64,000 nucleotides of DNA from Medicago truncatula (taxonomy: Eukaryota; Streptophyta; Magnoliopsida; Fabales; Fabaceae), in contig NC_053045.1 in NCBI RefSeq assembly GCF_003473485.1, positions 43,132,494 to 43,196,493 on the forward strand. The letters run 5' to 3'. Positions 13,279-63,938 of the stretch are shown here, piece after piece. The number at the start of each line of letters is the position of its first letter. Positions within the stretch are counted from its first letter, which is position 1. Made by a program: the position numbers and the translations under genes. The notes beneath the pieces are model-generated. The model ran no database searches and was not told the DNA's origin. It saw nothing but the letters and a program-made list of their open reading frames with translations.

Positions 13279-13312
<34 letters not shown>

Positions 13313-18099: not shown

Positions 18100-19075
18100 T
18101 GTTTAGACGTTCTTTTGGTTGGATGCATGGATGGAGGGAGGATCTTTTGTGTAATAGGTTTAGATGTATATTTGATTGCAATAAGATTTGATTGCTGTCA
18201 ATTTTTGAGACGTGTTCTTTAGACTGGAGGTCGAAAGAGATGTTTGAATATGGTGACATCGATTATTAGCATGGGAGGAGGAGCAGGTGGGGAAGCGAAA
18301 TGAGATACTAAATAACATTTTGTTGCATGTTCGTGTAAAAGATAGATGGAGTTGGCATCTCGCGTTAAACAAATGTTACATTGTCAGTGATGTTTATCAT
18401 ATGTCGGATGCGATAAAGCTGACTGCTCGGGCTGAAACTAATGATATTATTTGGAATAAAACAATATTGTTAAAAGTGTCTATTTTTGTTTGACGTTTAT
18501 TACGTAATCAAATTCCTACAAAAGACAATTTGGTAAGACAGGAAATCATTCAACCAACTTCTAATACGTGTATGAGTGGTTGTGGGATGGTGGAATGCAT
18601 TGGTCGTCTGTTTTTGGGTTGTGACTTTTTTGGGTGCAAGAGATGTTTGAATATGGTGACGTCAATTATTAGCATGGGAGGAGGAGCAGGTGGGGAAGCA
18701 AAATGAGATACTAAATAACATTTTGTTGCATGTTCGTGTGAAAGATAGATGGAGTTGGCATCTCGCGTCAAACAAATGTTACATTGTCAGTGATGTTTAT
18801 CATATGTCGGATGCGATAGAGCCGACTGCTCGGGCTGAAACTAATGATATTATTTGGAATAAAACAATACTGTTAAAAGTGCCTTCTTTTTTTTTACGTT
18901 TATTACGTAATCAAATTCCTACAAAAGACAATTTGGTAAGGCAGGAAATCATTCAACCAACTTCTAATACGTGTATGAGTGGTTGTGGGATGGTGGAATG
19001 CATTGGTTGTATGTTTTTGGGTTGTGACTTTTTTGGGTGCATTTGGTTCTTAGCTAGGCAATGGCTATGAGTCCG
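18100..19075 (+). pseudogene. LINE reverse-transcriptase zinc-binding (zf-RVT) remnant, tandemly duplicated
   Basis: Translation at 18690-19070 gives DRWSWHLASNKCYIVSDVYH, then NDIIWNKTILLKV, RLLRNQIPTKDNLVRQEIIQ and CGMVECIGCMFLGCDFFGCI. This is the zf-RVT domain near the C-terminus of plant LINE reverse transcriptases (family DxWxW, YxVxSxY, WxxxxPxKVxxFxWRLLxxRLPT, CxxCG). The preceding 403 bases (18238-18640) are an almost identical direct copy starting at AGATGTTTGAATATGGTGAC; its frame is cut by a TGA where copy 2 has TTA. Upstream of both, decayed LINE sequence extends to about 18100. Confidence 0.8.
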
Positions 19076-20231: not shown

Positions 20232-20738
20232 GTGAGAAACGTTTTTCCTCTTTTTTTAATATTCAGTTTTCCTTCCCCTCTCCTCTTGCTCCCGCCAGAT
20301 CTGATTCCATTATAATTTTCGATGGCCTCCCCTGCAAAATAGATTATGTAAGCTTATATATAAGCACTTCTTCTATAAGCTGTGAATAAGTTTTTTTATC
20401 CAAACAAGACCTAAGTACCAATAATAATCATGAATTTTTGTTTTTTTTCACCTTCTTCTGTTAGAGTTTTTCGCATAATGAACACTAACTTTTTGCATTA
20501 TCACATAATTAAGTGCTTGCTTGATACCTTTCCTGCTTCTTGCTGAGCTGCTGTTGGTGTTAATTTTTTTTTTATTTTTTTTTAGGGTTTAGTGATCCGG
20601 TCCATCGATTTTAGGGTCTAAGCTTAGATGCATTGTTCTGCACTTATTCAAAGTGCAATACTTTGTCTTTTCTATGTTTAATTATCAGTTCCGTTCTTAA
20701 TATTATGTAACATGAAATGCAGCTTTCTTTTCAAGCCA

Positions 20739-21110
20739 ATGACGAATAAGAAATCCCCAACGACCCCGAAAAAGTTGCAAGAGAATAATGCCATTAAGGA
20801 AGAGCCAAAGCCTTCTTCTGCACCAAAAAAAACAGTTAGTGAAATTGACGAAATATTCGCTGGGAAAAAGAGAAAGAAATCTGATGTGAAAAAGACTGGA
20901 AAAGCCCGTGAAGCAACTAAAAGTAATGATAAAACTAACAAGAAGAAACCAAAACGGCTAGATGAGAGTGAGTTTGTGGACCGGCCTTCTCGATCAAGAA
21001 AGAAAACAGAAGATGGGCTTACCATCTATACGGAAGAGGAGTTAGGTCTTAGTAAAGGGGATGCTGGAAATACCCCGTTGTGTCCATTTGATTGTTCTTG
21101 CTGCTTTTGA
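20739..21110 (+). CDS. Small lysine-rich DUF1764-type protein
   Basis: A 123-residue basic protein of a conserved eukaryotic family of unknown function (DUF1764). Family hallmarks are visible: VSEIDEIFAGKKRKKSD at about residues 28-44, lysine-rich low complexity in the middle, then RPSRSRKKTEDGLTIYTEEE, and the C-terminal signature DAGNTPLCPFDCSCCF. The start at 20739 was chosen because a splice acceptor (AAATGCAG, ending 20721-20722) removes the in-frame ATG at 20712. A 5' UTR exon probably lies at about 20101-20231, ending at a GTGAGA donor. The length matches the usual plant form. The lysine-rich character suggests a nuclear or nucleolar protein, which is inference. Confidence 0.85.
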   Translation: MTNKKSPTTPKKLQENNAIKEEPKPSSAPKKTVSEIDEIFAGKKRKKSDVKKTGKAREATKSNDKTNKKKPKRLDESEFVDRPSRSRKKTEDGLTIYTEEELGLSKGDAGNTPLCPFDCSCCF

Positions 21111-44300: not shown

Positions 44301-44820
44301 GAGAGAGATGAACACAAATTAGAGAAGGAGGGAGAAAGAGAGAATGAAAGAAAGAAGATGATCCAAATACCTTGTATACTTAGAGATGAAAATGACAATT
44401 TAATATATTTTTGTTTTTGTTTTGGGGACTGCTTTTTTAATTTTATATTACTGTTTGCTCTTTTTAATATGTTTATGTGTATAGACTATGAATATTAGCT
44501 TTGTGAAATTTTAATTAAAATTACAGATATAAATATTTAATATACTAATCTTTTTAATGCAGATAATATAATAATAATTATTTTTTGTTACAATATAATA
44601 ATATAGATATAAAAATGAAGAGTATTTTGTACCAAAAAAAAAAATAAAAAAAAATGAAGAGTATAAGATGAGATATAGTAGTCTATCTATCTACTGAAAC
44701 CAAAAACCTTATCTCTAGTTAGTTTTTGCATCAGTTTTGTATAATTTGTATATCTTTTCAATTCAATTCATTTCATTTCATTCATGTTCCTCTCACTGTG
44801 AAACATCATCTTCATATTCA

Positions 44821-46606
44821 ATGGCTGCTTCACCTTCTTCAGCACTCAATTCTCTCTCCTCTCTCTCTTTCCGATCCTCTTCTTCCTCCTCATGTTTCTC
44901 TCTCCTCCCCACAACCCACAAACTCACATTCCCACTTACTAAAACCCCATTCACTCTCTCCACAATTTCCTTCACCGTCAAAGCAATTCCCACCTCCGAT
45001 GAATTCGACATCACCATCCCAGAAGAAGACCTTCCCTTCAACCCACCGGAAATCCCGGAAGGCTTCATTCCACCACCTTCCATAGACGACGGCCCAGACG
45101 AAGACGAAGATGAAATCGCCGCCGCATATGAAGAGCTATACGGTGTTGCGTACAGTGGTGTTAGTGTGCTTGGAAATGATATAAATGTGATGGATAAGAA
45201 GGCGAGGAAAGATACCGGATTCGGTTCGGGTGTAAAGAAGGAAAAGATAAGAGATGGGTTGGAAGAAAGAGTTATTCAAGTTAGGAGGGTTACTAAGGTT
45301 GTTAAAGGAGGGAAACAAATGAGGTTTAGGGCTATTGTTGTTGTTGGTGATAAGCAAGGAAGAGTTGGTGTTGGTGTTGGGAAAGCTAAGGAAGTTGTTT
45401 CTGCTGTTCAGAAATCTGCTATTAATGCTAGGAGGAATCTTATTAGAGTTCCTATGACTAAGTACTTGACTTTTCCTCATAGGTAACTTTCTCTAACTTT
45501 CATTCATTTTATCATTTTTTTTTTTAATTAAACTTCATTTCACAATATAATCAGGCTTCATTCTAATATTATCATGTGTCTCACATTGTCAAATTGTCAG
45601 CATTGCATTATGTCATGACAGATTCTGTGCCAGGTGCCATAGGCAGCAGCGACTATCTTATCATTATCACTATGTTTCCGACTTTCTGCTATAGGCCGCA
45701 ATGCCCTTTTAATATGGTGAATTTTTGTCTGGCCTCCATGTAAATATGACATTGTGGCCTATATAGTAGAATCTGCTTTGTGGATTATTCACTTATGCTG
45801 AAATTATACGTTGACATGTGACTACCCGTATGCTCTATGTAAAAATGAGAAACGAATATGAAATAGGTTGAAATATGGACATTCAATTTGCTATTAGCAT
45901 CGTAAGATTTTACTGGCCTTCATTTGAACATTTGATGGATTGAAGTCCCCTTCTCCCCGAGGGATACCAGAGCTGAATATATAGTATTCGATTGAGGTTG
46001 TAGTTGGATCATGCATTTTCCACTAGCAATGCCCTTCCATAGATCGCTGCATACGTGTTTGGTGCCTATTTGTGAATGCTTATCGCAGCTGAAAGGGCTC
46101 TTACTGATGAATGCCTAAGTAACTTATGGTCACTTAAGCAACCTATTAAGATGTTCCCTGTTAGATTTCCTTAACTCAAATAGGAGCCGAAGAGCAGAGT
46201 CTCTTGCTGAGAGATGGAACTTTTATTTCAAAGGAGAAGCATATCAATAACTTCGATTGAGTTCCTCGTGTTCTAAGATGCTAGAATTTTAGTTAGATAT
46301 GAATTTTGAGTTGCAAATTGCCACTAATTTTATGTCGTATATAATGTTTTTTCCAGAGCTGATGGAGATTATGGAGCGTCAAAGGTGATGCTTAGACCCG
46401 CTTCTCCTGGTACTGGAGTTATTGCAGGTGGGTCTGTGAGAATTGTTCTTGAAATGGCCGGTGTTGAGAATGCTTTGGGGAAACAACTAGGAAGTGACAA
46501 TGCACTCAACAATGCCAGAGCAACTATAGCTGCCGTGCAGAAAATGAAGCAGTACAGTGAGGTCGCTGAGGAGCGTGGGATCCCTATGGAAGAATTATGG
46601 AAGTAG
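44821..46606 (+). CDS. RPS5: Plastid 30S ribosomal protein S5 (uS5c), nuclear-encoded, two exons
   Basis: Component of the chloroplast small ribosomal subunit, made in the cytosol and imported. Exon 1 44821-45482, intron of 874 bases, exon 2 46357-46606, joining CAT AG|A GCT in phase: 303 residues, as in other plants. Residues 1 to about 55 are Ser/Thr-rich and poor in acidic residues, a typical transit peptide. Residues 56-145 are a plant-specific extension with the acidic stretch [10 protein letters not shown]. The S5 N-terminal RNA-binding domain spans about 146-210 ([40 protein letters not shown]). Exon 2 gives the C-terminal domain ([36 protein letters not shown]). An in-frame ATG at 44737 would add 28 residues unlike a transit peptide start, so MAASPSS at 44821 is preferred. 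Confidence 0.96.
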
Positions 46607-47282: not shown

Positions 47283-49409
47283 TCATTTCCATATTTTCAC
47301 AGTACAGTCGCTGCTACATGATGCAATGAATTCATTTTGAGGACAAGCTGCTAGTCCAGTAATTGTTGCATTAGTATGGGCATGAATATGATATACTTGT
47401 CCAGTCTCAGGAATCCACAATTCCATGTTCTGCAATATGCAACAACTTTATTTCTTACATAAAACAACCAAAGACAACAACTTAGAGTTGAAATATTTAA
47501 AAACATAAAAGTTTTTCATTTTCAGAGGAATACAACACGTGAAAACAAGAGACTTCAATCCATAAAACAGCACAACAGGATAGTTTAATTACCTGAAATC
47601 CACCAATAACTAGTGCATTAGGGTATCTAGGATGGAAGATGATGGACTGAAACCTCTTCCCATTTGATTGATACTCATGTAGGCATTGTCCGCACACCGC
47701 AATCGACCAGACACGTGCACAATCTTCAGTGACAGAGGCAATCTTTTGCCCCTTTGCATCCCAACACATTGAAAAAATTTCTTTGTTGTGTCCCTTATAG
47801 AGATTATCAATATTTAGTCAGTCATGCTATGTTACACAAACTCATTATTCAATCAATTTATAAGTGAACCTAACCTGAAAACGGTTTTGAACATTCCAAG
47901 TCTGAATATCAAGTATGGTGATAGTATTTCCCTTAGCAACTGCCAAAAACTTCCCAGATACAGGCTGGAACCTTATTTGTTGCCCACCTGCCTGAAATTC
48001 ATTGTTAAGTATATATGGATCATTAATCAGTGAAGTAATTCATGATGAGTTAGAATTACTCACTATAAAGTTTTTCATCCTAACACCCTGAATGAGATCC
48101 CATACTTCAATTACATCAAAGCTATCAGATGAACAAAGAAGTCCTTCAAATGGATGGAAGTCTAATGACTTTACCACACCATTGTGCCCAGCAAGATCAA
48201 ACAACACTGTTCCAGGCTATAAAGGAATGAATGCTCATGTTACAAAAGGAAAGGGAAAATATATGACATGAAAAGAAAGAGACTCTTACTTTGTTTGAAT
48301 CCCATAATTTTACTGCTTTATCAGAGGAAGAAGTTGCAAATATATTTGTTCCTGGTTGAAATCTAACTTCTGAGATAGGAGCTGAATGTGACTGTGATGT
48401 AGTAATACAATCACAGGTATCCATGTAGCATATTAAAGGCTGCATGTCGTTAATCATAAACCAAAATAAGCATTACTACAGAGACAGTAATTAAGAAATT
48501 AAAATTGGAAAATATGATCAAATTGATTATTCACCTTCCTCCCAAACCCAGCACTTGCCAAAACCTTTCCATCAGACGAAAAATCGCAGGCCGAAAGCAA
48601 GTCAATGCTTCGAAATGCTTGTACAAGAAATTAAACTAAACACAATTAGATTCAACAATATAATTCGTAACATTGATAAATGTTTTCTCAAATACATTTG
48701 TAGATAATAGAATTTTACTTGCAAGGGACTGAATAGAATATCCTTCTTGATATATTTGAGGGGTAGTGTCTCTTTTAGAACCAACGTTTAGGGCCTGAAT
48801 TTTGATTATACATATAAATAAATAGTAAATGACATGTGTTTAATTAATTACACTATATGAATCAAACAAAACCAAAAAGAAACATTAATGAGCATTTAGG
48901 CATAATCACCTGATTGGAGGATGGTAGCTTTTTTGGTAGTCTAGGCTTATACATGTCATCATGGAGTTTAACCCAAAATTCATGCAAGAATCCATGTGGA
49001 TATTGATTAAATTCTGAAAACACAGAAACTTATAATAGTAACAACAGTATGATATAAAGAAATGAATATTACGTAGAAGAAACAATTATATGTGTCGGTG
49101 TCGGACACTGACCCTGGACACGTCTAATCCGAGGAGTGTCCGTGCCTCATACGTTATTATATATTTTTGGATAAAACGAATAAAGAGAAAGGGAGTATAT
49201 ATACCAAAGGGAGGTTGTGTAGTAACATGGCCTTCCTTTCTGAAAATTTCAGCAGTATAGGACAATCCACGCTTCTTCAGGTAATCATACATGTACATTC
49301 GGAAACTACAGAAAATAAAACGAAGTTTAAGTAACAAAATCAAAGAATAAGGAAAGAATAACATCTAGCATTGTACTCACACATCTTCATGGGAACGTGT
49401 AGGGTTCAT
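47283..49409 (-). CDS. Compact LEUNIG-like LisH-WD40 protein, copy 1 (ten exons)
   Basis: Predicted transcriptional corepressor-like protein of 386 residues. Exons (minus): 49381-49409, 49205-49305, 48910-49013, 48719-48794, 48535-48617, 48290-48439, 48064-48216, 47875-47991, 47593-47793 and 47283-47429, all GT-AG and in phase (1161 bases). The N-terminus has a LisH motif (MYMYDYLKKRGLSYTAEIF) and the LUFS-type continuation QYPHGFLHEFWVKLHDD (LUG family GFLFEWWSVFWDIF). The rest is WD40 sequence: SACDFSSDGKVLASAG, VRFQPGTNIFATSSSDKAVK then LWD, SLDFHPFEGLLCSSD, CWDAKGQKIASVTEDCARVW, and the last repeat ending CSSDCTVKIWK. LUG proteins (about 900 residues) have a long Gln-rich middle that is absent here, so LisH/LUFS runs almost straight into the propeller. 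No disabling change seen. Repressor activity is inferred from family. Confidence 0.88.
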
Positions 49410-50287
49410 GAATTAACAGAGTTAGCATGTAGTATCATGCAAAAGAAGAATTAAGAAATATTTTACGTTATTTATTGTTTGTGATGAACGAGGTTTGTGG
49501 TGTGTTTGTTGTGATTATTGACTAACTGACCCAACGTGTCTCATTTTTCACTGTTGTTACTTGTACATGAGTAATAAACAAGTAATCAATTTTCTCAACG
49601 TGTCTTATTTCTCTCTTTTGTTCCATTTCATTATTTTTTTAATCAAACTAATTATCCTTTAATATATCAAATTTAAATGCAAATTAATTATTATTATATT
49701 TTAATAATTGTAACATTTTGCACACAATGTAGATTTCATTCCTGGAACTGAAAGGGATTGAATATGAACCGTGCATTAAGGATCTTGACTTATTTGGATT
49801 TTATATTCATTTCATTTCATTTTTTTTTATATTTTTATAGGTTATTTAGCTTCATATTTCATATATATTTGATAGATTGGAGTTTAATATTCATCACCCT
49901 TTTAGAGAAAAGACAATTCTTGTGTGAATGTATTAGCAAAGAGAGGAACTACAAGTTCACTGAAGGTATGGTCGAACATAACATTACTTTATTGAAACAC
50001 CGTACAACTATAATATAGAAAAGCATGAGAAGCCCCAAATTTTTCTTCTGTTACACATGAGTCATTTCCATTTGATTATTACAATTTACATCACAATTTC
50101 AGGAACATTTCCATTGAAAAACAAAGACATGTTTTATTTGATTACATCTATACTGGCCTCAATCAACAGCAATTATTTTTTTCCACTACGTGACTAGCTT
50201 ACAAAACATACACAATTATCTAACAAATCTTAAACACTGAAGTAGTGGAGGAATTTACACCAAATAACAGAGACATTAACTAGAACT
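49410..50287. other. Intergenic between LUG-like copies 1 and 2
   Basis: Contains sequence at about 49750-49950 that recurs at 54570-54830, and the shared 3' flank of copy 2 at 50068-50165. No gene. Confidence 0.6.
50068..50165 (-). repeat. 3' flank shared by LUG-like copies 2, 3 and 4
   Basis: The block with CATTTCCATTTGATTATTAC and AAAAACAAAGACATGTTTTA just beyond the stop codons recurs near 55547-55640 and 62306-62410. It shows that the duplication unit extends past the coding region. Confidence 0.75.
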
Positions 50288-52820
50288 TCATTTCCATATC
50301 TTCACCACAGAATTACTGCTAGCTGATGCAATATCGAATTCACTTCGCGCTGTAGTAGCTGCTAGTCCAGTAATTAATACATCAGAGGCATCTCCTTTAG
50401 TACGTATTTCCCTGGTCTCAACAGTCAACAATTCCAAGCACTGCAATAAGTTGTCCACAGATTATTTACTTACTATTTATGCAACCACCTCGTATACTTT
50501 TATAGTTTTAATAGGTTCAACTATGACTGAGTCTAACTGTAACCTCTGTAACATTTACTTAAACGGAGATATAGATGGGACACAACAATCATATAATAGA
50601 AGCAGAGGGAAGAGTTTACCTGAAAACCAGCAACAACTAAGACGTCAGGATATCGAGGATGGAATATGATAGACTGAAACCTCTTCCCGTCTGATTGATA
50701 CTCGAATATGCATTGTCCGTCCGACCAGACACGTACATCATCTTCACTGACAGAGGCAATCATATTCCCAGTGACATCCCAACATATGGAATTTATGTCT
50801 TTGACGTGACCCTATTAGGGAACAAGATTCAGACTCATACTGTATTAATACTATATCATGATACACAACTCAAATTTTAATCAATTATATGTCATACGTG
50901 AACCTCACCTTAAGAATGTTCTTAACGTCGAAAGACGGAAATTCAAGTATGGCGATAACATTTTGATTAGCTACTGCCAAAAGCTTCCCTGATCCAGGCT
51001 GAAATCTCACTAGGCTTCCTGCCTGAAATTCATTTTTATACAAGTCATTGTATTCATGTGATCTATGAGTAGTTGTCATTCAGTTTTGAATACTAAAAGA
51101 TGAGTGTAAGACTCACAATACAGTGGTTAATCCTGACACGCTGATTGAGATCCCATACTTTAATTACATTACTGGTATCGGACGAGCAAAGAGTTCCTCC
51201 TAATGGGTGGAAGTCCAATGATCTAACTTGCGCCTCATGTTCATCAAAACCGGACAACAATGTTCCAGGCTATATATATCATGAAACATCAAAACATAAT
51301 GAATCAATCCTCAAGTTACAATGGAAGGACTAATGCAGAAGAGTGAGTAGAAGGGGATATGAAAAGAAAGAGACTCACTTTTTTTGCATCCCATAATTTT
51401 ACTGTTTTATCAGCAGAAGATGTTGCAAATATAGTCGATCCTGGTTGAAATCTAACTTCTAAGATGGTAGATGAATGTGACTTTGACGTAGTAACACAAT
51501 CGCCAGTGTCGATGTAACAAATGAAAGGCTGTTTAAACCATAATATAAAGATAAATACATTACGCAGACACGTAGTGGAGACAGTAAACAGACGAAATTG
51601 GGAAACTTATCGCATTAATTATTCACCTTCCCGCTTTTCCCACAACTTGCTAGAATATTTCCATCCGATGAAAAATCACAGGACAAAAGCTTTTGACTAC
51701 TTGTAAAACCTTGGTGTTAGAAATAAAAATAAACATCGAATCAACTAAATTTCCATCATTGTCATTTCAAATTGATAACTGAAGCTACTAACAAGATTTT
51801 GTGAAGTATATAAATGACAGAATTGTGATGCCAAAGATGCAAAGAATAGAAATTTACTTATAAAGTGTTGAATAGAATATCCATCCCGAATCATTTGAGG
51901 GGTATTGTCCATTATAGCACCAATGTTTGGGGCCTGAAAATTGAGTAATATATGACTGCGTTGCACTATATATGAAACTAAGAACCAGTTATTAACATTG
52001 AACATTTAGCCATCATATATAACCTGACTCTGACCGGAAGGTCCTGGTATCTGTGGAATAGATTTTATCCATAAATCGTACAACAATCCATGTGGTTGTT
52101 TATCAAATTCTGAAAGCACAGTTAAATAAAATTAATCAGTTACAGAAATGAATGAAAAAAATAAAGAAAATATAATAATAATAAGATAAATAAAAGAATA
52201 TGTAGAACAGTAGAAACTTATGTATCCTTCACAGAACAATTACACACAAGCTAAATTATCCATATTATAAGAAAAATGAATAGTAGTGCAAGGAGTATAA
52301 TGCAAAGACAGAGAAACGATTCTTGGGAAAAATGAACAAAAAAACCGAGAAGACAAATAATTGTGGTCCACTACCACAAGTGCAGCTACAATATATAAAG
52401 ATTTTAGAGGTCTCGGCAATGATACTGCCACCGCAATGGCGGTATTATCAGCTACATTTGTATACATTTTTTAGCAATATCAAGATTTGCAATGTAGAAA
52501 CAGTTCCTGGGTAAAATGGCTAAAGAAAAAACTAGCAAAAGGATGCAAAAGCATACGTACCGGGTGGAGTTTGTCCATTAATTCGAGCTTCACTTTGAAA
52601 CACCTCAGCAGTGTTTGACAGTCCTCTCTTTTTGAAGTAATCATGCAATAAGGTATCAAGACTACACAGAACAGACGATAAATTATATGGATAAGATTAA
52701 GAAGCATTTTAAGAAAGAAAATAAAAGAAAGCAGCGCAAGAAAAGTGATAGAACATGCATGCAGCATTGTACTCACAGTTCATTTTTGGGATTTTTCGGG
52801 TCCAGATATGGATTGTTCAT
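50288..52820 (-). CDS. Compact LEUNIG-like LisH-WD40 protein, copy 2 (ten exons)
   Basis: Same ten-exon architecture and intron phases as copy 1; reconstructed length 1152 bases, 383 residues. Start ATG at 52818-52820 (MNNPYLDPKNPKNEL), stop at 50288-50290. LisH: LLHDYFKKRGLSNTAEVF; LUFS-type segment EFDKQPHGLLYDLWIKSI; propeller segments SCDFSSDGNILASCG, VRFQPGSTIFATSSADKTVK then LWD, SLDFHPLGGTLCSSDT, CWDVTGNMIASVSEDDVRVW and a C-terminal blade ending SNSVVKIWK. All splice borders are canonical and no stop interrupts the joined frame. Closest visible relative is copy 4, with near-identical exons 8-10. Confidence 0.88.
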
Positions 52821-52888
52821 CTTTGATAAAGGAAGATGAACAAGATTAATGGAAAGGTGGGGAACTAAGGTGGAATTAATAGTGAGTT

Positions 52889-53027
52889 TGTTAGAACAAG
52901 ACTTCACAAGAAACTGATATCTTTATTCAATGAATCAATTAACTTTGATTACAAGTGATTACTTATATACTTGATTAGTATAACCAACTATAAAAACTGA
53001 CAAAACAGAAATTCTAACTGTCTAACA
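52889..53027 (-). mobile_element. 139-bp LTR-like unit (possible copia LTR)
   Basis: On the minus strand it starts TGTTAGACAG, contains a TATATAAG box and an AATAAAG poly-A signal in the usual LTR order, and ends GTTCTAACA, giving TGTTAGA/TCTAACA terminal inverted bases. No target duplication was found at its edges. It may be the 3' LTR of the copia remnant that lies further upstream in the same orientation. Confidence 0.5.
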
Positions 53028-53889
53028 AACTAAGAGAAGCTGAAAAATTCCAAAGGCCCATAAACAATAGAGACTTAAGGCCCAAATAAGAAATGCTAAA
53101 TGTTAAAGCTTCTTTATTTTTCATCGTATATATTTTCATCGTTGAATGCTTAATATAAAATTCAGAGAAGATAGAGCAACTAAGCATATAAATTATGGTG
53201 GTAGAATGCATTTGACCCAATTTTTTCATTGCTTCTTTATTTTTTTGTATCTGTTTTAATTTATTAATTTTTTTTGTTTATTTCTTAAATTTTGTTTAAT
53301 GGGTTCAGATCCATGGTTTGTTGTTGGGATTAGCCTTAGCATTAATTAGTTCTATACCATTAATATATTTCCTTTTTATTTATTATTTTATATATCATCC
53401 AGAAATTTTGAAAAATTATATTTGATCATTACCAATCCAACTTTAATCAATTCTTTGATTACACTTTACACTGAATTACAAACATTATATAGCACAATGC
53501 TGCGACGTAACAGAAACATAGCCGATTTTCCTGCAGTCGAGAATCCCGCAATCACACAATCATAATTTACAAACATGGTGGTCTATAGAATACAATATAA
53601 TCTATCTGGTAAGTCCAGGTCAAACTAATAGAACACTTTGGTAATTTTGAATAAAACTACTTTTTAGGAATTGTGGAAAGTTGAGAGAATGAATAATAAG
53701 ATTTTTTTTTTTGTATTCATTAGGATCACTACTTACTTTCTACTTATACAAAGAGAAATCACAACTAACTTCTCAAAACTAACTCGTAACTTGTTATTGA
53801 AGTAACCTAACTAACAAACTAACTTGTTTCTTACCACACAAGTTACAATAATAATCACAATAACTAATAAGCTAATTTGAAATGCAATG

Positions 53890-54450
53890 ACCAATACACC
53901 TTATTTCAAACTAGTTAAAAAGTGCTACTCTTCAATGGCTTTGTCAGCAAGTCCGCCACTTGCAATTCTGTCATGCAATACTCTAGCTCAAGTTTCTCTC
54001 CATTCACCCGATCCTTTAGAAAGTGAAATCTCGTTTCTATATGTGTATTCCTACAAGTTCAGCTCATACATTAACATGATCGACCATTGAGCTTGACAAG
54101 CAACTATTGAAGTTGCAATATACTCTTTCTATCACATTTGACACCACTCCAATCTGAATCATATTATCCTTACACTGATACACCTCTTGTTTCTGGTTGT
54201 TTTGATTCTTCCTTTGACATACTAAATGAGATGTTACAGGAATCTCCAGTCTCCATGAACCTACTGATCAGTCCTACTCCATATGCTATATCAAGCCTAG
54301 TATGACACACAAATCTCAATGATTCAATTATTTTAATCACTATTGAACCTCTTCAGTAGATCTCTTGCATATTTTCTTTTGTCATTTACAAACTCCATTC
54401 CTATAAAGTAGGATAGGGCTCCAAGTTTAGGTATCTCAAATTCCTGTATA
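53890..54450 (-). pseudogene. Ty1-copia reverse transcriptase/RNase H remnant
   Basis: Minus-strand readings match the C-terminal half of copia polyprotein: LSYFIGMEFVNDKRKYARDL, then DIAYGVGLISRFMETGD, then HIETRFHFLKDRVNGEKLEL and EYCMTELQVADLLTKPLKSS (family SKHIEIRFHFLRDxVxxGxLxLxY, then ADIxTKPL). Frame changes and stops between these blocks show decay. Confidence 0.75.
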
Positions 54451-55751
54451 TATCATGCTCCTTCTGAAGTAATTCATTATTTTTAATCAAATTAATATAC
54501 CAAATTTAAATGTAAACTAATTATCTTATAATAAATTGCAAGATTTTGCACATTGGTAATTTTTTCTCTTATGCGTTATGCACTCATTCACATCATACAT
54601 AATGTAGTGTATATTTTATTCGTGGAACTAGAAGGGATGGAAAATGAATCATGCGTTAATGACCTTGGCTTATTTGTTAAATTTGGATTTTATATTAATA
54701 TAACTTTTTTTTACATTTTTATAGGTACTTTAGCTTGACATTTCGTATATATTTGTGAGATTGGAGTTTTGATATTCATCACACTTTTAGAGAGAAACAA
54801 TTCTTGTGTGAACCTATTATCAATGAGAGGAACAACATTTACTTGGATATAAGCAGAATAATTTGGATTCTGAATAATGCTTCTCCAAATATTGTAGTTT
54901 TGTTCCTGCAGTTGGTTGTGCAAGCGGAGCTTATGAAATAAGACTGCAATTCGATTCTGGCATAACACATTCTTGAGGAGAGATGACGAAAATTGTTAAA
55001 ATTTCATTGTTAAATATTTGATTTGTTCATATTTTAAGAGTCAGTTATGTTTTAATGAGCAAAATGATAACAAGAGCCAAGAGAGGAGACATAACAGAAA
55101 GGAATTGATTCAATTCGGTATTAAGACTATGTTATAGTTTGTTGTAGGATTCATATAAAATTGGGATGCGAACTAACCAACATATATCTACAGACCATTA
55201 TGCTGCTTTTCCAATGTAATGATATCCTCACACAAAAATGGTTCATCCTTATAGGGAAAACTATTGAAAGTGAAGACAGTAATTCACTTTCATTTAAATT
55301 TGTCTGAAATCATATCAATTTCTTCAAAAAGTTATACAATATGCATCAATCTTATAAAAACTTGTTTCCTTTTGGAAATCTAATTTTGTATGCAGATTTC
55401 TTCATTCGTTTTTATATCTACTAAATGTTTAGGGAAGGTATGATAAATTATAACGTTACTTATTGAAGATAACGTTCCTATAATATAGAAAACGTGATGA
55501 GAAGCCCTTAATCTTTATTTTGTTACTATACATGCAGTACATTTCCATTTGATTATTACATCGTAATTTCATGAACATTTCCATCGAGAAACAAAGACAT
55601 GTTTTATTTGATTACGTCTATACTGGCCTCAATCAACAGTAAAACTCTTTTCATCGTAATTTGTACATATAAACAAAGATTATCCAACAAATCTTAAAAA
55701 CTGAAGTAGTGGAGGAATTTACACCATAGCACAGAGACATTAACTAGAATT

Positions 55752-58192
55752 TCATTTCCATAGCTTCACCATAGAATCAGTGCTAGCGGATGCAATATGG
55801 AATTCACTTTGCGCCGTTGAAGCTGCTAGTCCAGTAATTGATATATCAGAGGCACTTCCTTTATTAAATCTTTGCCCGTTCTCAATAATCAACCATTCCA
55901 AGCACTGCAATAAGTTGTCCGAAGATTATTTACTTAATATTATGCAATAACTTCTGTACTTGTTACATAAGCATCAAAGGGAACAACTTTAAGCTGAAAT
56001 TCTCATGATTTTTGTTTTCTTTTTTTCAAAGGAACCAGTTGGAAATCTATATTCTTATGAGCTTCATAAATAGATACCAGAAATGGTTCATTAGGGATAA
56101 TGGAAACCCTAATTAGCCAACAAATAAAGAAACCTTGGTTTTGGTTCAACTATGACTGAGTCTAAGTGTAACCTCTGTAACAGTTACTTAAATGGAGATA
56201 TAGATGGCACACACGATCATAATAGTAGCAGAGGAAAGTATTTACCTGAAAACCACCAATAACTAAGACGCCAGGGTATCGAGGATGGAATATGACAGAC
56301 TGAAACCTGTTCCCATTTGATGGATACTTATACATGCATTGTTTCACCATAAAAACCGACCAAACACGTACATCATCTTCAGTGACAGAGGCAATCATTT
56401 TACCAGTGACATCCCAACACATGGAATAGATGTCTTTGGTGTGTCCCTAATAGGGAACGAGATTCAGAGTTTCAGACAGAATTGTGCAGTAATACTAGTG
56501 CCATGATTCACAACTTATATACGATATTTGAAACTCACCTGAAGATTGATCCGAACATTGGGATCCTTTAAATCATGTATGGTGATAACATTTTGATTAG
56601 CAACTGCCAAATGCCTCCCAGATCCAGGCTGAAATCTCACTAGGCTTCCACCTGCCTGCAATTCATTTTTATACAAGTCATTGTACTTAAGTGACCTGTG
56701 GTGAGTACTTGTTTGTTATTCAGTTTTGAATAGTAAAAGATGAGTGACCTGCAATTCTTTAATCGTGGCATGCTGTTTAAGATCCCATACTTTAATTACA
56801 TTGCTATCAGATGAGCAAATAATTTCTTCTGTTGGGTGGAAGTCCAATGATCTTACTTTTCCATTATGTACAACATAATTGAACAATGCTCTCTCAGGCT
56901 ATACATAAAAAATATATCTAGTGAAACATCAAACGGCAAATTACAAAGGAAGAACTGATGCAGAAGAGGGAGTTGAAGGGGATACTCACTTTTTTTGCAT
57001 CCCATAGTTTTACTGTTCCATCACGAGAAGTTGTTGCAAATCTAGTTGATTTTGGTTGAAATCTAACTTCTAAGATGATATCTAAATCTGACTCTAATGC
57101 AGTAACAGAAGCACGACTTTCCACGTAGCAAATGAAAGGCTATATAAACCACAATATATGGATAAATACATTGGATAGACACATAGAAAAAGTGACAGTA
57201 AACAAATGGAAGCGGAAAATTTATCGCATTGATTATTCACCTTCGCCCCATTCTCATCACTTGCCCCAATCCCACCACTTGCTATAATCTTTCCATCAGA
57301 TGAAAAATCGCAGGACATAAGCTTCTGATTGCTTAGAAAACCTTGTGTAAGAAATAAAAATAAACATTGAATAACTTAATTTCATAACTGAAGTTACGAA
57401 TTGCAATATAGTTGGCAAGATACTAACAAGGATTTTGTGAAGTTTATGAAATGACAGAATTGTGATGCCAACGATGTAAAGAATAGAAACTTACTTGCAT
57501 GGTGTTGAATAGAATATTTATCCCGAATTATTTGAGGGGTATTGTCCATTGTAGCACCAACTTTTGGGGCCTGAAAATTAAGTAATATATGAGTGTGTTG
57601 CGCTATGAATGAAACCAAGAACCATTGATTAACATTGAACATTTAGCCATTATATATAACCTGACTCTCACTGGAAGTTCCATAGTTTAAATTCCAGAAG
57701 TCGCACAACAATCCATGTGGTTGTTTATCAAATTCTGAAAGCACAGTTAAATAAAACTAATCAGTCACATAAATGAATGAGAAAAAGAAAGAAAATATAA
57801 TACCAAGATAAAGAAAAGAATATGTAGAATCACACAAAAGCTCAATTATCCATATTATAAGGCAAATGAATAGTATAATGCAAGGAGCATCAAAGAAGAA
57901 ACAGTTTTTGGGTAAAATGAATAAAGAAAAATTAGCAAAAGGGTGCAAAATTAAGCATACCAGGGAGAATATGTCCGGAAACTCGAGCTTCATTTTTGAA
58001 AATCTTAGCAGTGTTTGACAATCCCTTCTTCTTGAAGTAATCACACAGAAAGTTTTGAAAACTACAAAGAACACACAGGATTCGTATTACGAAAGAAAAT
58101 GAAAGAAAGCAATTCAAGAAAAAGGAAAGAACATGCATGCATGCAGCATTGTACTCTACTCACAGTTCTTCTTTGGGATTTTTTGAATCCAT
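55752..58192 (-). CDS. Compact LEUNIG-like LisH-WD40 protein, copy 3 (ten exons)
   Basis: Start ATG at 58190-58192 (MDSKNPKEEL), stop at 55752-55754. Ten exons with the array's standard phases, 1152 bases, 383 residues, no interruption. LisH: FLCDYFKKKGLSNTAKIF; LUFS-type segment EFDKQPHGLLCDFWNLNY; propeller segments SCDFSSDGKIIASGGIGA, VRFQPKSTRFATTSRDGTVK then LWD, SLDFHPTEEIICSSDS, CWDVTGKMIASVTEDDVRVW; C-terminus STDSMVKLWK. Exon 5 carries an 18-base expansion encoding extra residues (ASDENG) in the first propeller segment, and exon 3 is shorter than in copies 1 and 2. Changes fall between rather than within structural core motifs, which suggests a maintained protein. Confidence 0.87.
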
Positions 58193-58611
58193 GTTAAAGG
58201 AAATGGTTCTTGCACTTAGATGAAGAAGATGATTAATGAAAGAAAATGAAAGGAGAGAAAGTGAAGTACTGCAAGACAATAGCGAGTGACCATGCAGAGT
58301 CATGCATAACAAGAAAATCTTTTCATTTTTATACTGTGGCGGTTAAGTGTGTGGTTAGTTTTTTTTTGTTGGTTTGTTTTTGGATTGTCACATATATAAT
58401 TCACAATTCCCGTTGGTACGCCTTATAAGTACTAGTTTATTGGAAGCAACATGAAAAGAATCCGGTACATAGGAAGATATAGAACTTCGGTTCGTGTCGG
58501 TTTGTCGTACCAGTATTACCTAATTAAGTAAAGTAAGTTATCAATACATTTTTAATAAAAAGATTATTTTTTACTAGAATTTTGAAACAAAACTTAAAAT
58601 TAAAAAGAAAT

Positions 58612-58850
58612 CACTAAGGGTTTCTTTGGATTGAGGGTTTAGGAGGAGAAGTTTCTTTTTTAAATTACGGACTATATAACATGTTTTTCTAAAATAAATT
58701 AAGTGTGATTGAAGTATTATATGATTATTTATCATGTTAATACGTTAACTTTTAAAAAAATATTCTTGAGTGTCCATAATTTAAAATTGAAAAGTAAACC
58801 CTCCCCTCCCTACCTCTCCTAAACCCTCCATCCAAAACACACTAAATATT
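58612..58850. mobile_element. MITE with AAGGGTTTCTTTGGATT terminus
   Basis: Left CACTAAGGGTTTCTTTGGAT and GGGTTTAGGAGG are mirrored on the right by CCTCTCCTAAACCCTCC and ATCCAAAACACACTA. About 240 bp, no coding sequence. Confidence 0.65.
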
Positions 58851-58934
58851 TAGATCCAATGGAAGTCTTTTTCAAGTGCTCAACTCTATCTCTGCTCCGA
58901 TACTAAAAACCTATTATTATTTAATTAATCGTGC

Positions 58935-59105
58935 AAGAAATCGTAAGATTGTGATACTTAGGAGACCAAAACTGCAAATCGGTATAAGATTAGTGTCCAA
59001 AGGCTGTACCCAAACTTATGGCGTAGATTATCAAGAAGCCTTTTCATTTGTAGCTAAGTTAAACATTGTTAGAGTCACCATTTTTACCAAACCTTTTCAC
59101 TTGTA
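58935..59105 (+). pseudogene. Ty1-copia reverse transcriptase fragment
   Basis: Translation gives IRLVSKGCTQTYGVDYQEAF, then SFVAKLNIVRVTIF, the start of the RVT_2 domain (family RLVAKGFTQxYGxDYxETF, SPVAKxxTIRxxL). Only this segment survives. Confidence 0.8.
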
Positions 59106-60070
59106 CACAATATTAAAAAGTCAAATTTTTACCAACCTTTAATTTCGACCAAAATTTTGATGATGTGGAAATAGTTTAAGTGATGTGGAATTAAATATTA
59201 TGTCTACATGGAATCTAGTCAACATTTATAATTTTTAAATGACCGACATAGTTTGTAAATTTCTGAAATTGGAGAGGAACAAACACCACCTCGGCACATT
59301 TGTTCAACAAGCTCTTATCATCAAAGGTCAGACTCAAACGATACAATGTCGTTGTTTCGCTCTGTTCTTAACTGGAGTTGAATTCCATTGGGTCAATTGG
59401 GTTTTACATTTTCAGTTGTTGAAAAAAATCTCAATTGAGGTTTCGAGTTAGATGTGAAAACTCGAAACCAACATATATGGACAATTATGCAGTTATACTA
59501 TTGTGTAGCACTAATATATATGTGATAGTTTAGAGTGCATAATTGTTTCATGTGCAAGAATCTTTTTCAATTAGTTGCATAAAGTGCACGATTGTCATTT
59601 AAAATAAGAAGCATAGAGAATTCTCAGGAACAATAGACAAAATCCCCTTCCTTCATGCAACTTTTGTGTTTTAGCTTTTAGTCACAAGGCTTTGTAATAA
59701 ATACACTACAAAGAATTACACATAGCAAAAGATTCTAATCCATTATGTATTTTGTCGCTAAAACATTCAAAGGTGGAACTTATCATCAATTTCTGTTACC
59801 AAAACTTGATTTATTCTGTTTATGCAAATAACCTACTTAGTTTCTCACTCAAACAAAATTAGAAGACTAAGACAAATGTAAAAGGTAATAATTGATAATC
59901 TAAACTCTATATATATGTTGTAAGCAAATTGCTCAATAATTCATGATGATATTTTAACTAAACAACTTCCAATTAAGGAAAATTACATGATAACATCAAG
60001 GGTATTCATCCCACACAAAAACCATAATATCATTCAAAATCATTAAAAAGATATAAACCAAGACGAGACA

Positions 60071-60736
60071 CTAATTGGATTCATCTTCAAAATCATCACT
60101 TGCAAGCTCGTTCAAATCAAAATTCTTCACAACTTTTGACCCGATTTCAGTTTCAGCTTCATTAATCTTCTTCTCTTCATTATCTTCAAAATCATCACTT
60201 GGAAGCTCGTTCAAATCCATATTGTTTGGAATTTTTTGCCTTTTAGCGCCGCTGTGATTCACATCGATATTGGCAGTTGATCCTTCATAACCCTCGCGAG
60301 ATATATGCAACAGAGTTTCAGCAACAGTAACTTCATCATCATCATCATCAATATCCATATATCTTTTTCTCCAGAGCGCCTGCCGTTTCTTGGGCGGTAG
60401 AAACTGATCATCAATGGAAGATGGGAGCGCATGCCGTTTCTTGGGTGGTAGAAACTGATCATCAATGGAAGACGGTGCTGTAGTTGGTGTGTTAGTAATA
60501 CCGTTTTGAGAGTGACACCTCTTATGTTCATCCAATGCTTTGTTAGAAGTAAAAACCTTGTTGCAAACATCACATGAGTGTTTATTTTGTTTTCCAACAT
60601 AATTGTTATTATGAGTAGGAACAGAATAAGAAAAAAACCATGCAATCTTTTGTTTTCCAGCATGATTAGTTTCAATGAAAGAGAAAGAAGGGTATTTGGC
60701 ATTGGTTTTTGGTTTATGAGACATTTTCTTGTTCAT
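60071..60736 (-). CDS. Single C2H2 zinc-finger protein with EAR repression motifs (intronless)
   Basis: 221-residue predicted nuclear protein. One C2H2 finger at residues 55-75 (CDVCNKVFTSNKALDEHKRC then H; spacing CX2CX12HX3H). The plant QALGGH helix is replaced by KALDEH. Residues about 88-116 contain an internal duplication of SSIDDQFLPPKKR, basic and possibly a nuclear localisation signal. Two C-terminal repeats, MDLNELPSDDFEDNEE and FDLNELASDDFEDESN, are EAR-type motifs; the first fits DLNxxP exactly, the second has Ala for Pro. EAR motifs recruit TOPLESS-type corepressors, so a repressor is likely. A TATATA box lies about 70-80 bases upstream on the minus strand (plus 60804-60819). ATG at 60736 chosen as first in frame; Met5 is an alternative. 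Located between LUG-like copies 3 and 4. Confidence 0.85.
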   Translation of the reverse strand: MNKKMSHKPKTNAKYPSFSFIETNHAGKQKIAWFFSYSVPTHNNNYVGKQNKHSCDVCNKVFTSNKALDEHKRCHSQNGITNTPTTAPSSIDDQFLPPKKRHALPSSIDDQFLPPKKRQALWRKRYMDIDDDDDEVTVAETLLHISREGYEGSTANIDVNHSGAKRQKIPNNMDLNELPSDDFEDNEEKKINEAETEIGSKVVKNFDLNELASDDFEDESN

Positions 60737-61301
60737 GAAGGAAGGGAGAGTACCTAGCAGAATAGGGTTTGTTTTGAATTGAGAGGGAGAGCGTATAATT
60801 GCTGCTTATATATCTATTACCAATTAATCCGTGCCATTAATCCTTCAATAAGCAATCAACGAGTCTAAACATGCCACCTAATCAATCCGTGCCATTGAGA
60901 ATTGCTGCTATTATTTTTCAAGCGGTTCCTTTAGTTTAGGTACATTCTTCTTCTTTTATTTCTCTATATAAAACTCTCTTTTTTTAGGAAATTAAACTCA
61001 TTTTATAATCTTTCTTTTTTTCTTTTGGGGAAATTCTTATATATTTTTTTTTATATAAAAAAATAAAAATATATTTTTATTTTATCATAAAAGTTATGAG
61101 ATTTGACTCTTTAATTTAAAAAAGCAATTTTTTTCACTATAATATGTTCCCATAGCAATTATTTTCACTATAATATGTCTCCATTCTAGTGAAGGTAAGA
61201 ATCATAAAAAATCATCTAAGGAAATGCCACCACGTTTTCACTTTTAACTAATTACTAGTTAAGAATCATACATTGAATGTAACACAATGGTAAAGTGAAG
61301 T

Positions 61302-61662
61302 AAACTATTAAATTGGTCCCTACCTTTGTACTAAATTTTTAAATTGGTTTAGGATTCTATTAATAACTCAAAATGGTTTATGTCTTTGTCAAATATTTTT
61401 TAGATTGATCTCTGACGCTATTAGTTATTTTGCATTTTAAGTCATTAAGATACCAAATAAGATCCAAAAGACATTACGTCATTAACCACTAAATAATATC
61501 CAAAAGACATTGAGTTATTAACACTCAAAATAAAAAACAACTAATAGAGTCAGAGACCAATCTGAGAAACATTTGAGAAAGACAAAGACCATTATAAGTT
61601 ATTAATAGAGTTAGGGACCAAATTGAGAATTTGGTACAAAGACAGGGACCAATTTGGTGGTT
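61302..61662. mobile_element. Hairpin MITE with about 140-bp TIRs
   Basis: Left GTAAACTATTAAATTGGTCC and ACCTTTGTACTAAATTTT pair with right AATTTGGTACAAAGACAGGG and ACCAATTTGGTGGTTTAC. The arms also share TCTATTAATAACT and GACTCTATTAGTT blocks. No coding sequence. Confidence 0.75.
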
Positions 61663-61710
61663 TACTCGCTAAAGTGTCATGTGCACTTTTCTGATATATA
61701 TAATACTCCT

Positions 61711-61975
61711 CAAAATAATTGTCTTTTTAACATTTTTTTCTCTGTCTCCAAATAATTATCAATTTAGAATACCAAAACAACATTTATTATTATTTTTCAT
61801 TATTATATCCTTATTTATTGAATTTCATCTAACTTAATTACTCCACTAATAATGGTATTTTAGTAAATGATATTAATTTTATCATTGAAATAACCACAAT
61901 TAATTATTTTCTTGAAAATCATGCACAAATCTCAAACGACTATAATTTTGAGACGGAGATATTACTTATCAATTT
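61711..61975. mobile_element. Possible Stowaway-like MITE, diverged
   Basis: Starts TACTCCTCAAAATAATTGTC and ends GACTATAATTTTGAGACGGA followed by GATATTA, imperfect inverted termini. Old copy. Confidence 0.5.
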
Positions 61976-62538
61976 TAAGTTTAGTTTCAAATTTCTAGTA
62001 AAAAATAATATATTTTTTTTTAAAAACATATTGATAGCTCAGTGATACAAATCGAAACAAATTGAAGCTCTATATCTTCATACGTAATGAATTTTTCTCA
62101 TGTCGCCTATTGCAGACCCGTACTCGCATCGCATACAGCCGTGAATTGTGAATTATGTGACTATCCACTAAAAAAGAGCATATGAAATAAGACTGCAATT
62201 CTTGAGGAGAGATGAAGAACATTGTTAAAATGATAACAAGAGCATTAAGAGATGGATTGTTTGTACATATATTGGTCGCCTATTTTTCTTCTGTTACTTA
62301 TAGATTAGTCATTTCCATTTGATTATTACATCATAATTTCATCAACATTTCAATTGAAAAACAAAGACATGTTTTATTTAATTACATCTATACTGCTATC
62401 AATCAACAACAATTTTTTCTTTCACTGACTAGAGCTTACAAGACAAGGAGTACATATACACAAAGATCATCTAACAAATCTTAGAAACTGAAGTAGTGGA
62501 GGAATTTACACCAAAGAACAGAGACATTTACTAGAACT

Positions 62539-63938
62539 TCATTTCCATATCTTCACCACAGAATCACTGCTAGCTGATGCAATATTGAATTCACTTCGCG
62601 CCGTAGTAGCTGCTAGTCCAGTAATTAATACATCAGAGGCACCTCCTTTATTACGTCTTTTCTCAGTCTCAAGAATCAACAATTCCAAGCACTGCAATAA
62701 GTTGTCCACAGATTATTTACTTACTATTTATGCAACCACCTCGTATACTTTTATAGTTTTAATAGGTTCAACTATGACTGAGTCTAACTGTATAACCTCT
62801 GTAACATTTACTTAACAGAGATATAGATGGGACTTAATGATCATAATAGAAGCGCAGGGAAGTGTTTACCTGAAAACCAGCAACAACTAAGACGTTAGGG
62901 TATCGAGGATGGAATATGACAGACTGAAACCTCTTCCCGTTTGATTGATACTCGAATATGCATCGTCTGTCCGACCAGACACGTACTTCATCTTCACTGA
63001 CAGAGGCAATCATATTCCCAGTGACGTCCAAACATATGGAATTGATGTCTTTGACGTGTCCCTAATATCGAATGAGAATCAGAGACACGGTGCAGTAATA
63101 ATAGTATCATGATACACAACTTATATATGATATGTGAAGCTCACCTGAAGTTGGTCAATAACAACCATAGTCGGAGTATCAATTATGGTAATAACATTTC
63201 GATTAGCAACTGCCAAAAGCTTCCCTGATCCAGGCTGAAATCTCACTAGGCTTCCTGCCTGAAATTCATTTTTATACAAGTCATTTTACTCTGTGATTCT
63301 GTTTTGAATACTTTAAAAGATGAGTTTTGAATACTGCAAAAATGAGTTTAAGACTAACCTTAAATTCGTTAACTAAGACATTCTTATGGAGATCCCATAC
63401 TTTAATTACATCACAGGTATCGGACGTGCAAAGAACTCCTCCTAATGGGTGAAAGTCCAATGATCTTACTGTCCCATTATGTCCAACAACATTGCAAAAT
63501 GATCTCTCGGGCTATACATATACAAATAATGAATTAATCCATAAGTTACATAGGAAGGAATAATGCAGATGAGTGAGTAGAAGGAGATGTGAAAAGAAAG
63601 AGACTCACACTGTTTGCATCCCATAATTTTACTGTTTTATCAGCAGAAGAGGTTGCAAACACAGTTGATCCTGGTTGAAATCTAACTTCGAAGATGGTAT
63701 CTAAATGTGACTCCAATGCCGTAACAGAAAGACCAGTTTCCAGGTAGCAAATGAAAGGCTATATAAACCACAATATAAGGAAGGATAAATACATTGGATA
63801 GACAAAGTGACAACAAACAAATGGATTTGAAAAATTTATCATATAGATTATTCACCTTCTTCCCAATCCCACCACTTGCTACAATCTTTCCATCCGATGA
63901 TAAATCGCAGGACAAAAGACTTTGACCGCTTGAAATAC
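62539..63938 (-). CDS. Compact LEUNIG-like WD40 protein, copy 4 (5' part beyond window)
   Basis: Exons 5-10 of the same gene structure are visible, ending at the stop 62539-62541; exons 1-4 (LisH/LUFS) would lie past 64000. Segments: SLLSCDLSSDGKIVASGG, VRFQPGSTVFATSSADKTVK then LWD, SLDFHPLGGVLCTSDT, VRFQPGSGKLLAVANRN, MIASVSEDEVRVW, C-terminus SSDSVVKIWK. Frame is open throughout and splice borders are canonical. In exon 9 the conserved Trp of the blade motif CWD is Leu (CLD), unlike copies 1-3. Sequence is closest to copy 2. Confidence 0.82.

Follow-up and report, generated by a model that had tools for sequence, protein, structure and literature searches.

Compact LEUNIG relatives in a tandem array of Medicago truncatula: intact, fast-evolving genes with hints of a decoy or conflict role

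What a corepressor-derived protein could still do after losing the middle of its ancestor is the question raised by a group of tandem genes in a 64,000-nucleotide stretch of Medicago truncatula DNA (the window). The proteins of this array consist of a LisH start joined almost directly to a LEUNIG-type WD40 propeller. LEUNIG and LEUNIG_HOMOLOG (LUG and LUH), the plant Groucho/Tup1-type corepressors, have the LisH start and the propeller in common with them; the compact genes differ in being tandem, in having 9–10 exons and about 385 residues with no linker, and in an eroded LUFS alpha-3 face. An earlier note had proposed that proteins keeping both functional ends of LUG could modulate or compete with LUG complexes by way of SEUSS and LUFS. 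The sequence evidence assembled here instead shows intact relatives that evolve under selection far faster than the canonical gene, which hints at a decoy or conflict role.

Gene models and extent of the array

The array of compact LEUNIG-like genes is real. Spliced models on the minus strand give three complete ten-exon genes, A (47283..49409, 386 residues, intact and with all introns GT-AG), B (50288..52820, 383 residues) and C (55752..58192, 383 residues, with a six-residue insert in blade 1). The window edge cuts the fourth minus-strand gene, D, leaving its last six exons, which encode 280 residues including the propeller (62539..63938); with flanking sequence D is complete at 62539-64689, with nine exons and 383 residues. 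The outer limits reported earlier are exact, as 47283 is the end of the A stop codon and 63938 the 5' limit of the outermost D exon still within the window. An exon layout identical in all copies, as had been claimed, holds for the ten exons of A, B and C but not for D, which lacks the intron separating exons 3 and 4 and so has nine exons; the layout therefore differs among copies. Similarly, a count of four genes describes the window but not the array, which in the window plus flanking sequence comprises nine units over 50 kb (window coordinates 47.3–97.6 kb). Six of these are intact (A, B, C, D, E and G), and three (F, H and I) are decayed, as judged by eye from the sequence; pseudogene drift is accepted for those three on the same reading. 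The intact copies encode 382–386 residues, all 53 introns of the six genes are GT-AG and reading frames are open in every spliced model, in support of the earlier view of maintained frames. Among the six, A is the most divergent in the tree.

Exons 5–10 of A, B and C, all on the minus strand, encode a LUG-type WD40 propeller, with seven blades in A by spliced model and alignment (47283..48617) and with corresponding spliced models in B (50288..51709) and C (55752..57341). The Gln-rich linker of the LUG/LUH subfamily is absent. A missed Gln-rich exon is ruled out by the shortness of the stretch from exon 3 to exon 5 of A, which totals 292 bases including the 76 bases of exon 4, and the intact gene models likewise offer no space for linker sequence at this point, which bears out the loss of the linker. 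For comparison, soybean LUG genes have 16–18 exons, and the shortest protein in a survey of the wider family has 513 residues (PMC13275459).

A whole-genome protein search at E 0.01, in which only the best candidates are scored, gave 70 matches and no second compact array, the matches inspected outside the array being those stronger than a group at 24–35% identity; the best matches of the compact proteins outside the array among those scored are C2, LUG and LUH-type loci. In viral contigs, none of 136 pattern matches was confirmed. Open literature on LEUNIG in legumes or Medicago, on its short forms or on selection holds no description of such an array in the titles and abstract beginnings of the matches listed.

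Origin and the eroded N-terminal surface

Of the relatives found, the one closest to the compact genes in the tree is a full-length but divergent LEUNIG-like gene from a different chromosome (C2:3.896-3.903 Mb). By eye, this gene resembles the compact genes in its first exons, in intron phases after exons 1–3 and in the intron positions of its propeller, and its LUFS motif is partly eroded; unlike the array, it occupies one locus and has retained exons for the linker, some of them Gln-rich. The C2 gene and the compact clade are split from eight LUG/LUH-type rows with support of 99/98, a placement that the long compact stem (0.81) could assist. Origin within the LUG lineage, as first suggested, is supported by the tree and by the LUG-type propeller, and the best explanation is descent from a divergent third LEUNIG-like lineage with loss of the linker exons. 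Direct descent from LUG or LUH is disfavored by the tree.

The LisH motif of the LUG/LUH subfamily is present. A Pfam scan of the N-termini of A, B and C places exon 2 of A (49205..49305, minus strand, 28.7 bits) and of B (52561..52661, minus strand, 25.6 bits) above the cut-off of 21.6 bits, with the LisH-like exon 2 of C (57961..58061, minus strand) 0.5 bit short at 21.1; LisH in D, E and G is assigned by alignment only. The remainder of the proposed LisH/LUFS start has fared differently. The subfamily's LUFS, in which LisH is followed by an FLFEWWSVFWD-type helix alpha-3, is not retained: the genome's canonical LUG genes have an intact alpha-3, whereas all six compact copies have an altered one, in which one tryptophan is preserved and G-[FLI]-L...W is left as a remnant motif. 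The claim that both functional ends survive is not supported at this helix. Comparison with the LUFS domain of SSDP/SSBP2 (structures 6iwv, 6tyd, 8hib and 6s9r) shows the same division, as the LisH part aligns with the compact proteins whereas the LDB-binding alpha-3 is unconserved. The N-terminus of canonical LUG matches SSBP2 at E 1.7e-9, and the three compact copies searched fall to 0.11 (A), 0.58 (D) and 0.02 (E).

These changes bear directly on whether the compact proteins could titrate SEUSS by way of their LUFS part, acting as LUG modulators or dominant negatives. Such a role would be consistent with the LisH and remnant motif still present and with LUH, whose LUFS part, according to PMC4015341, binds SEU-like proteins and suffices alone for SLK binding. 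In solved homologues, however, alpha-3 contacts LDB-type proteins (SEUSS relatives), and the SSDP substitution V65K essentially blocks co-immunoprecipitation with Chip/LDB (PMC6800368). In A, the eroded alpha-3 segment of exon 3 (48910..49013, minus strand; GFLHEFWVKLHDD) aligns with a lysine opposite V65 of SSBP2/SSDP; E has arginine there, and B has lysine on an ungapped reading, MAFFT setting a gap beside the position. At the V65 position C, D and G remain hydrophobic (L, L or I), but their F66-equivalent is altered to N, Y or R. The surface for LDB/SEUSS-type partners is, on these alignments, eroded while LisH is retained. As alpha-3 is altered in all six copies, capture of SEUSS or competition with LUG through LUFS appears unlikely, and titration of SEUSS as the role of the array is correspondingly improbable.

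In layout and size the compact proteins also resemble LIS1/PAFAH1B1 (LisH plus propeller, about 410 residues). The N-terminus of D matches LIS1 (E 0.062) better than SSBP2, and that of E matches it at 0.046, near its SSBP2 value. Since the compact propeller is of the LUG type, this likeness is taken as convergent.

Rates of change and their distribution

A confounding issue for comparison among the compact copies is that gene conversion disturbs their trees. The last exon of B with its flanks (50215..50514, minus strand) is 94% identical to D at 62466-62765, but upstream of the last exon identity in the B–D alignment is 72–86% in seven of eight windows of 250 columns, a conversion-like mosaic. 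A nucleotide tree built from the six copies has weak support (30, 43 and 53). The array shows marks of a diversifying birth-and-death family, namely intact and decayed tandem members, gene conversion and sites with omega (dN/dS) over 1.

Pairwise omega for all 15 pairs of the six copies is 0.59–1.23 at dS 0.18–0.56. The canonical LUG pair of the genome, with omega 0.097 at dS 0.56, is under strong constraint (omega about 0.10, against 0.6–1.2 for the compact genes). That omega near 1 together with a lack of transcripts would disprove function had been proposed beforehand. In 12 of the 15 pairs omega is indeed indistinguishable from 1, but this average pools sites under constraint and a class well above 1, so that a value near 1 does not by itself mean that function has been lost.

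Site models, run with custom code and empirical posteriors on six paralogs from one genome assembly, find this class at omega 2.6–3.2. For the whole alignment, M1a/M2a gives 2 delta lnL of 49.3, a multi-start figure (M1a lnL -5230.9, against a worse single-start optimum of -5237.2); the single-start value of 59.8 (54.8–62.4 on four other topologies) may be about 12 too high. With four exon blocks each fitted on a separate tree, the summed statistic is 45.5 (p 2.9e-7), with just 3.6 from exon block 1 alone, and M8a/M8 gives 50.8. Trimming around gaps reduces M1a/M2a to 32.2, and dropping one copy from the trimmed set gives 17.4–40.6; because the set without B (40.6) exceeds the full trimmed set, these leave-one-out figures hold optimizer noise of several units. 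Forty null simulations gave values no higher than 9.0.

Fast sites (P over 0.8) are unevenly spread. With blade elements assigned by hand, c-d loops, d strands and d-a loops together contain 21 such sites among 87 residues, and strands a, b and c contain 8 among 153; posterior omega differs between these groups (p 1.2e-11). In the N-terminal part they number 17 of 108. The expectation that copies differ mostly at loops and at the C-terminal blade is borne out for the fast c-d loops, but the outer d strands, the N-terminal part and blades 4 (10/41) and 6 (6/42) change as well, and the C-terminal blade 7 contributes 4 of 27. Diversifying selection is thus shown here for the outer strands, c-d loops and N-terminal part, with the propeller core constrained.

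Relaxed constraint after duplication, in which redundant copies head toward loss and only nonsense changes have so far been purged, would account for the many pairs near omega 1, for an exon divergence that is 0.81–1.14 times intron divergence (ten pairs without A) and for the three units already decayed. This reading is nevertheless unlikely. Six intact genes with uniformly GT-AG introns stand where about 1% of unconstrained simulated copies would be stop-free (1.3% at 0.10 substitutions per site), the class above 1 recurs in whole-alignment, trimmed and leave-one-out runs, and the core strands are constrained. Pseudogene drift for A, B, C, D, E and G is rejected on the intact models, the stop-free simulation and the site models.

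Candidate roles of the compact propellers

If the compact products cannot capture SEUSS, what remains is a LisH-paired propeller. LUH offers a precedent, as in vitro its WD part binds AP1 by itself according to PMC12643531. The compact proteins would hold ligands of the LUG/LUH propeller while being unable to dock on SEUSS-type adaptors or supply linker functions, and could thereby act as decoys or competitors for those ligands. A nine-unit birth-and-death array of such decoys is the reading we favor, tentatively and at somewhat less than even probability.

Shortened paralogs of corepressors and other regulators that are thought to compete, such as AES/Grg5 and plant microProteins, provide a parallel, with the difference that AES keeps the N-terminal part without a propeller, whereas the compact proteins lose the linker and keep the propeller. 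The top face of propellers, with its d-a and b-c loops, is often the site that holds peptides. As the fast sites lie mainly in outer strands and c-d loops, outside those top-face loops, the ligand model is a guess.

A second use of the retained LisH would be to poison heterodimers, with compact proteins pairing with LUG/LUH or C2-type proteins in half-complexes short of one linker and one LUFS face. LisH is a dimerization motif in plant Gro/Tup1 proteins according to PMC4015341. Pairing of compact with canonical proteins is purely hypothetical, however, and the LisH segment is itself diverging (mean posterior omega 1.23), which makes this role rather unlikely.

For the favored decoys, diversification could be driven by a changing ligand, which might be a pathogen effector or other antagonist, or else a partner in reproductive conflict. 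That one branch of a strongly conserved corepressor family has become a set of conflict genes diversifying against a moving antagonist, whether corepressor-aimed pathogen effectors or reproductive or genomic conflict, is a more doubtful proposition than the decoy role; a search of the open literature on that question found no report of a conflict or decoy role for LEUNIG-type proteins. The six intact copies form a natural set with which to ask what a propeller binds on its own, and they open a test of plant corepressors as targets in arms races.

Anatomy and extent of the compact array

The window holds a tandem array of compact LEUNIG (LUG)-like genes whose anatomy can be read directly from their spliced models. 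Three intact minus-strand genes lie wholly within it, A (47283-49409, 386 residues), B (50288-52820, 383 residues) and C (55752-58192, 383 residues); D, also intact and on the minus strand, occupies 62539-64689, with 62539-63938 inside the window. Two more intact copies, E (80099-83013) and G (87141-89645), lie beyond the window on the same strand as the rest. All introns are GT-AG and all frames are open in A, B, C and the visible part of D, and across the six intact copies, of 382-386 residues, GT-AG boundaries are found in 53 of 53 introns. The N-terminus carries LisH (Pfam scores of 28.7 bits in A, 25.6 in B and 21.1 in C, the cut-off being 21.6), and the C-terminal part is a WD40 propeller. 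As the interval from exon 3 to exon 5 of A comprises only 292 bases, 76 of them taken by exon 4, a Gln-rich linker has no room there, in agreement with the earlier note, which had described a LisH start and a WD40 propeller lacking the Gln-rich middle. Its account of four genes with identical exon layout stands for open, spliced, same-strand genes, but in D the intron separating exons 3 and 4 is absent, and the array has nine units. By eye, the exon 3/4 junction of D preserves the spliced-form length, as would be left by a putative cDNA-mediated loss.

The window (C4:43132494-43196493) belongs to a genome of 430 Mb in 42 contigs. With its flanks added, the array reaches window coordinate 97.6 kb; the flank search met no similar unit between 97.6 and 183.9 kb on that side, nor between -40 and 47.3 kb on the other. 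By our own count all nine units share one strand and six are intact. The decayed units, judged by eye, are F, a broken fragment; H, without exons 2 and 3 or the acceptor of exon 7; and I, missing its 5' half and carrying an in-frame stop. Just upstream of truncated unit I, at about 97.7 kb, a tRNA-like stretch is followed by an A-rich run (by eye), perhaps a tRNA-derived SINE close to the point of truncation. Translations inspected by eye also reveal Copia-like retroelement remnants between units, at 53900-54500 and 58840-59140.

Between C and D, a minus-strand gene at 60074-60805 encodes a single-C2H2 zinc-finger protein (Pfam) with two DLNEL motifs, which we take to be EAR-type, and a duplicated SSIDDQFLPPKKR stretch; the presence of an EAR repressor amid a corepressor-derived array may be chance. 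A plus-strand gene for ribosomal protein S5 (44812-46606; plastid type by our own reading) adjoins A, the last unit of the array, and elsewhere in the window lie a Dof transcription factor gene (12325-13395, plus strand), a zf-RVT match (18660-19067) and a gene for a DUF1764 protein (20682-21107, plus strand).

Full-length relatives

Whole-genome protein and LisH family searches, followed by tblastn on the loci fetched, identified seven LUG-like loci outside the array, with further weaker matches elsewhere at 24-35% identity. Two are LUG-type (C3:53.25 and C1:2.15), three are LUH-type (C1:20.4, C7:27.48 and C7:27.49), and two are divergent, at C4:54.57 and at C2:3.90, the latter being the best match outside the array. 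By eye, the first exon of the C2 gene resembles that of the compact genes, the introns following exons 1, 2 and 3 agree with theirs in phase and the propeller introns in position, and linker exons with Gln-rich stretches are present. Within its linker (C2:3898960-3900110), a Gln-rich exon-like stretch of the KQDQQMQMQSQNL type is apparently a tandem triplicate (by eye). In a propeller tree of 15 rows, including two Arabidopsis rows and partial rows for C1:20.4 and C4:54.57, the compact clade is supported at 100/100, and the eight LUG/LUH-type rows split from the compact genes plus C2 at 99/98. The partial C4:54.57 row has a long branch (0.68); this gene (C4:54565001-54575218), which shares its chromosome with the array, keeps the LisH/LUFS motif.

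A soybean survey describes 12 LUG genes of 16-18 exons, no tandem duplication and family proteins of at least 513 residues, the shortest having 513 (PMC13275459), in contrast to the 382-386 residues of the compact copies. As the survey required both LisH and WD40 domains for inclusion, an absence of compact forms from soybean is suggested by it but not proved (PMC13275459).

Divergence and selection among the copies

The earlier note had argued for maintained function and proposed a pairwise dN/dS comparison of the copies. Across all 15 pairs of the six intact copies, maximum likelihood omega is 0.59-1.23 (dS 0.18-0.56); omega of 1 is rejected in three pairs, each including A, and is not rejected in the other 12. 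The canonical LUG pair (C3 and C1:2.15) gives an omega of 0.097 at a dS of 0.56, and omega is 0.025-0.124 in four further pairs of full-length genes, including one whose dS, at 11, is saturated. The tandem pair of LUH-type full-length genes at C7:27476944-27500976, with propellers 99% identical (omega 0.095, dS 0.06), is likewise strongly constrained, whereas the compact array is not. Exon/intron divergence ratios, 0.81-1.14 in the ten pairs without A and 0.60-0.69 in the five with A, look like decay when taken alone. Against this, just 1.3% of unconstrained copies remain stop-free when simulated to 0.10 substitutions per site. Each pair has 20-38 gap runs in its introns, the majority of lengths not divisible by three, yet six of six coding frames are open; exon gap runs that are not multiples of three number 0-3 per pair in the genomic alignment, with frames unbroken.

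Pairwise identity in 250-column windows reveals mosaics of the kind that gene conversion leaves. Identity between C and D is 91-96% in the region of the promoter and first exons, and beyond these it is 77-85% in eight of nine windows with data and 93% in one. B and D share 91-98% identity over the stretch from exon 9 through the 3' flank, and from exon 1 up to exon 9 they are 72-86% identical in seven of eight windows with data and 57% in one, where D misses its intron.

Diversifying selection on the compact array is well supported by site models run with code written for this analysis (empirical posteriors; relative branch lengths fixed, with a free scale). M0 gives an omega of 0.95 for the six intact copies; the M1a/M2a comparison yields a 2 delta lnL of 49.3, with 24% of codons in a class of omega 3.2 (alternative M2a optima place 31-34% at 2.6-2.7), and M8a/M8 yields 50.8. 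Because the copies are mosaics, M1a/M2a was refitted to four exon blocks on their own trees, giving 3.6, 8.3, 22.4 and 11.3, a total of 45.5. The gap-trimmed alignment, with 282 codons remaining, retains 32.2, and 17.4-40.6 when one copy at a time is removed; the maximum in 40 null simulations on mosaic trees is 9.0.

With blade elements hand-assigned on copy A by repeat pattern and posteriors from one site-model fit, mean posterior omega is 0.88 in strands a, b and c versus 1.58 in c-d loops, outer strand d and d-a loops, where 21 of 87 sites exceed P of 0.8 as against 8 of 153. Fast evolution also marks the LUFS-motif segment (1.64) and the linker stub (1.60). Altogether, P exceeds 0.8 in 50 of 405 columns and 0.95 in 13; by part, sites over 0.8 number 10 of 41 in blade 4, 6 of 42 in blade 6, 4 of 27 in blade 7 and 17 of 108 in the N-terminal part.

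The SEUSS-facing helix and a possible decoy role

In SSDP, a LUFS-domain homologue from the fly, the LisH dimer is built from alpha-1 and alpha-2, and Chip/LDB is bound by the alpha-3 surface; this binding is essentially blocked by V65K and weakened by D68R and by F66E/L69A/Y70A (PMC6800368). V65 was placed in the motif FLHSWWCVFWDLY from the residues named in that paper (F58, V65, F66, D68, L69 and Y70). The canonical LUG N-terminus, hand-joined from three exons, matches SSBP2 (E 1.7e-9), with GFLFEWWSVFWD at the motif. A has GFLHEFWVKLHD there, aligning K opposite V65; E has R, and B has K if read ungapped, next to a MAFFT gap. C and D have L and G has I at this position, with N, Y and R, respectively, at that of F66. 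In a PDB search of the N-termini of three of the six copies (A, D and E), D matches best to the LisH of TAF5 (E 0.052) rather than to SSBP2. Since SEUSS carries a domain resembling the dimerization domain of Ldb proteins (PMC4015341), loss of SEUSS binding by the compact proteins is a reasonable prediction from their sequences.

For LUH, AP1 is bound by the WD part on its own, SEP3 binding requires the Q region too, and SEU-like proteins bind to the LUFS part (PMC12643531); LUFS alone did not achieve reporter repression (PMC4015341). From this division of binding among parts, a compact protein would be expected to act as a decoy: with LisH and propeller, no linker and an eroded alpha-3, it would hold propeller ligands as a dimer without docking SEUSS. 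We offer this mechanism tentatively, as a plausible reading with somewhat less than an even chance of being correct. Because diversifying selection is joined here with birth-and-death of copies, the ligand of the propeller may itself be a moving one.
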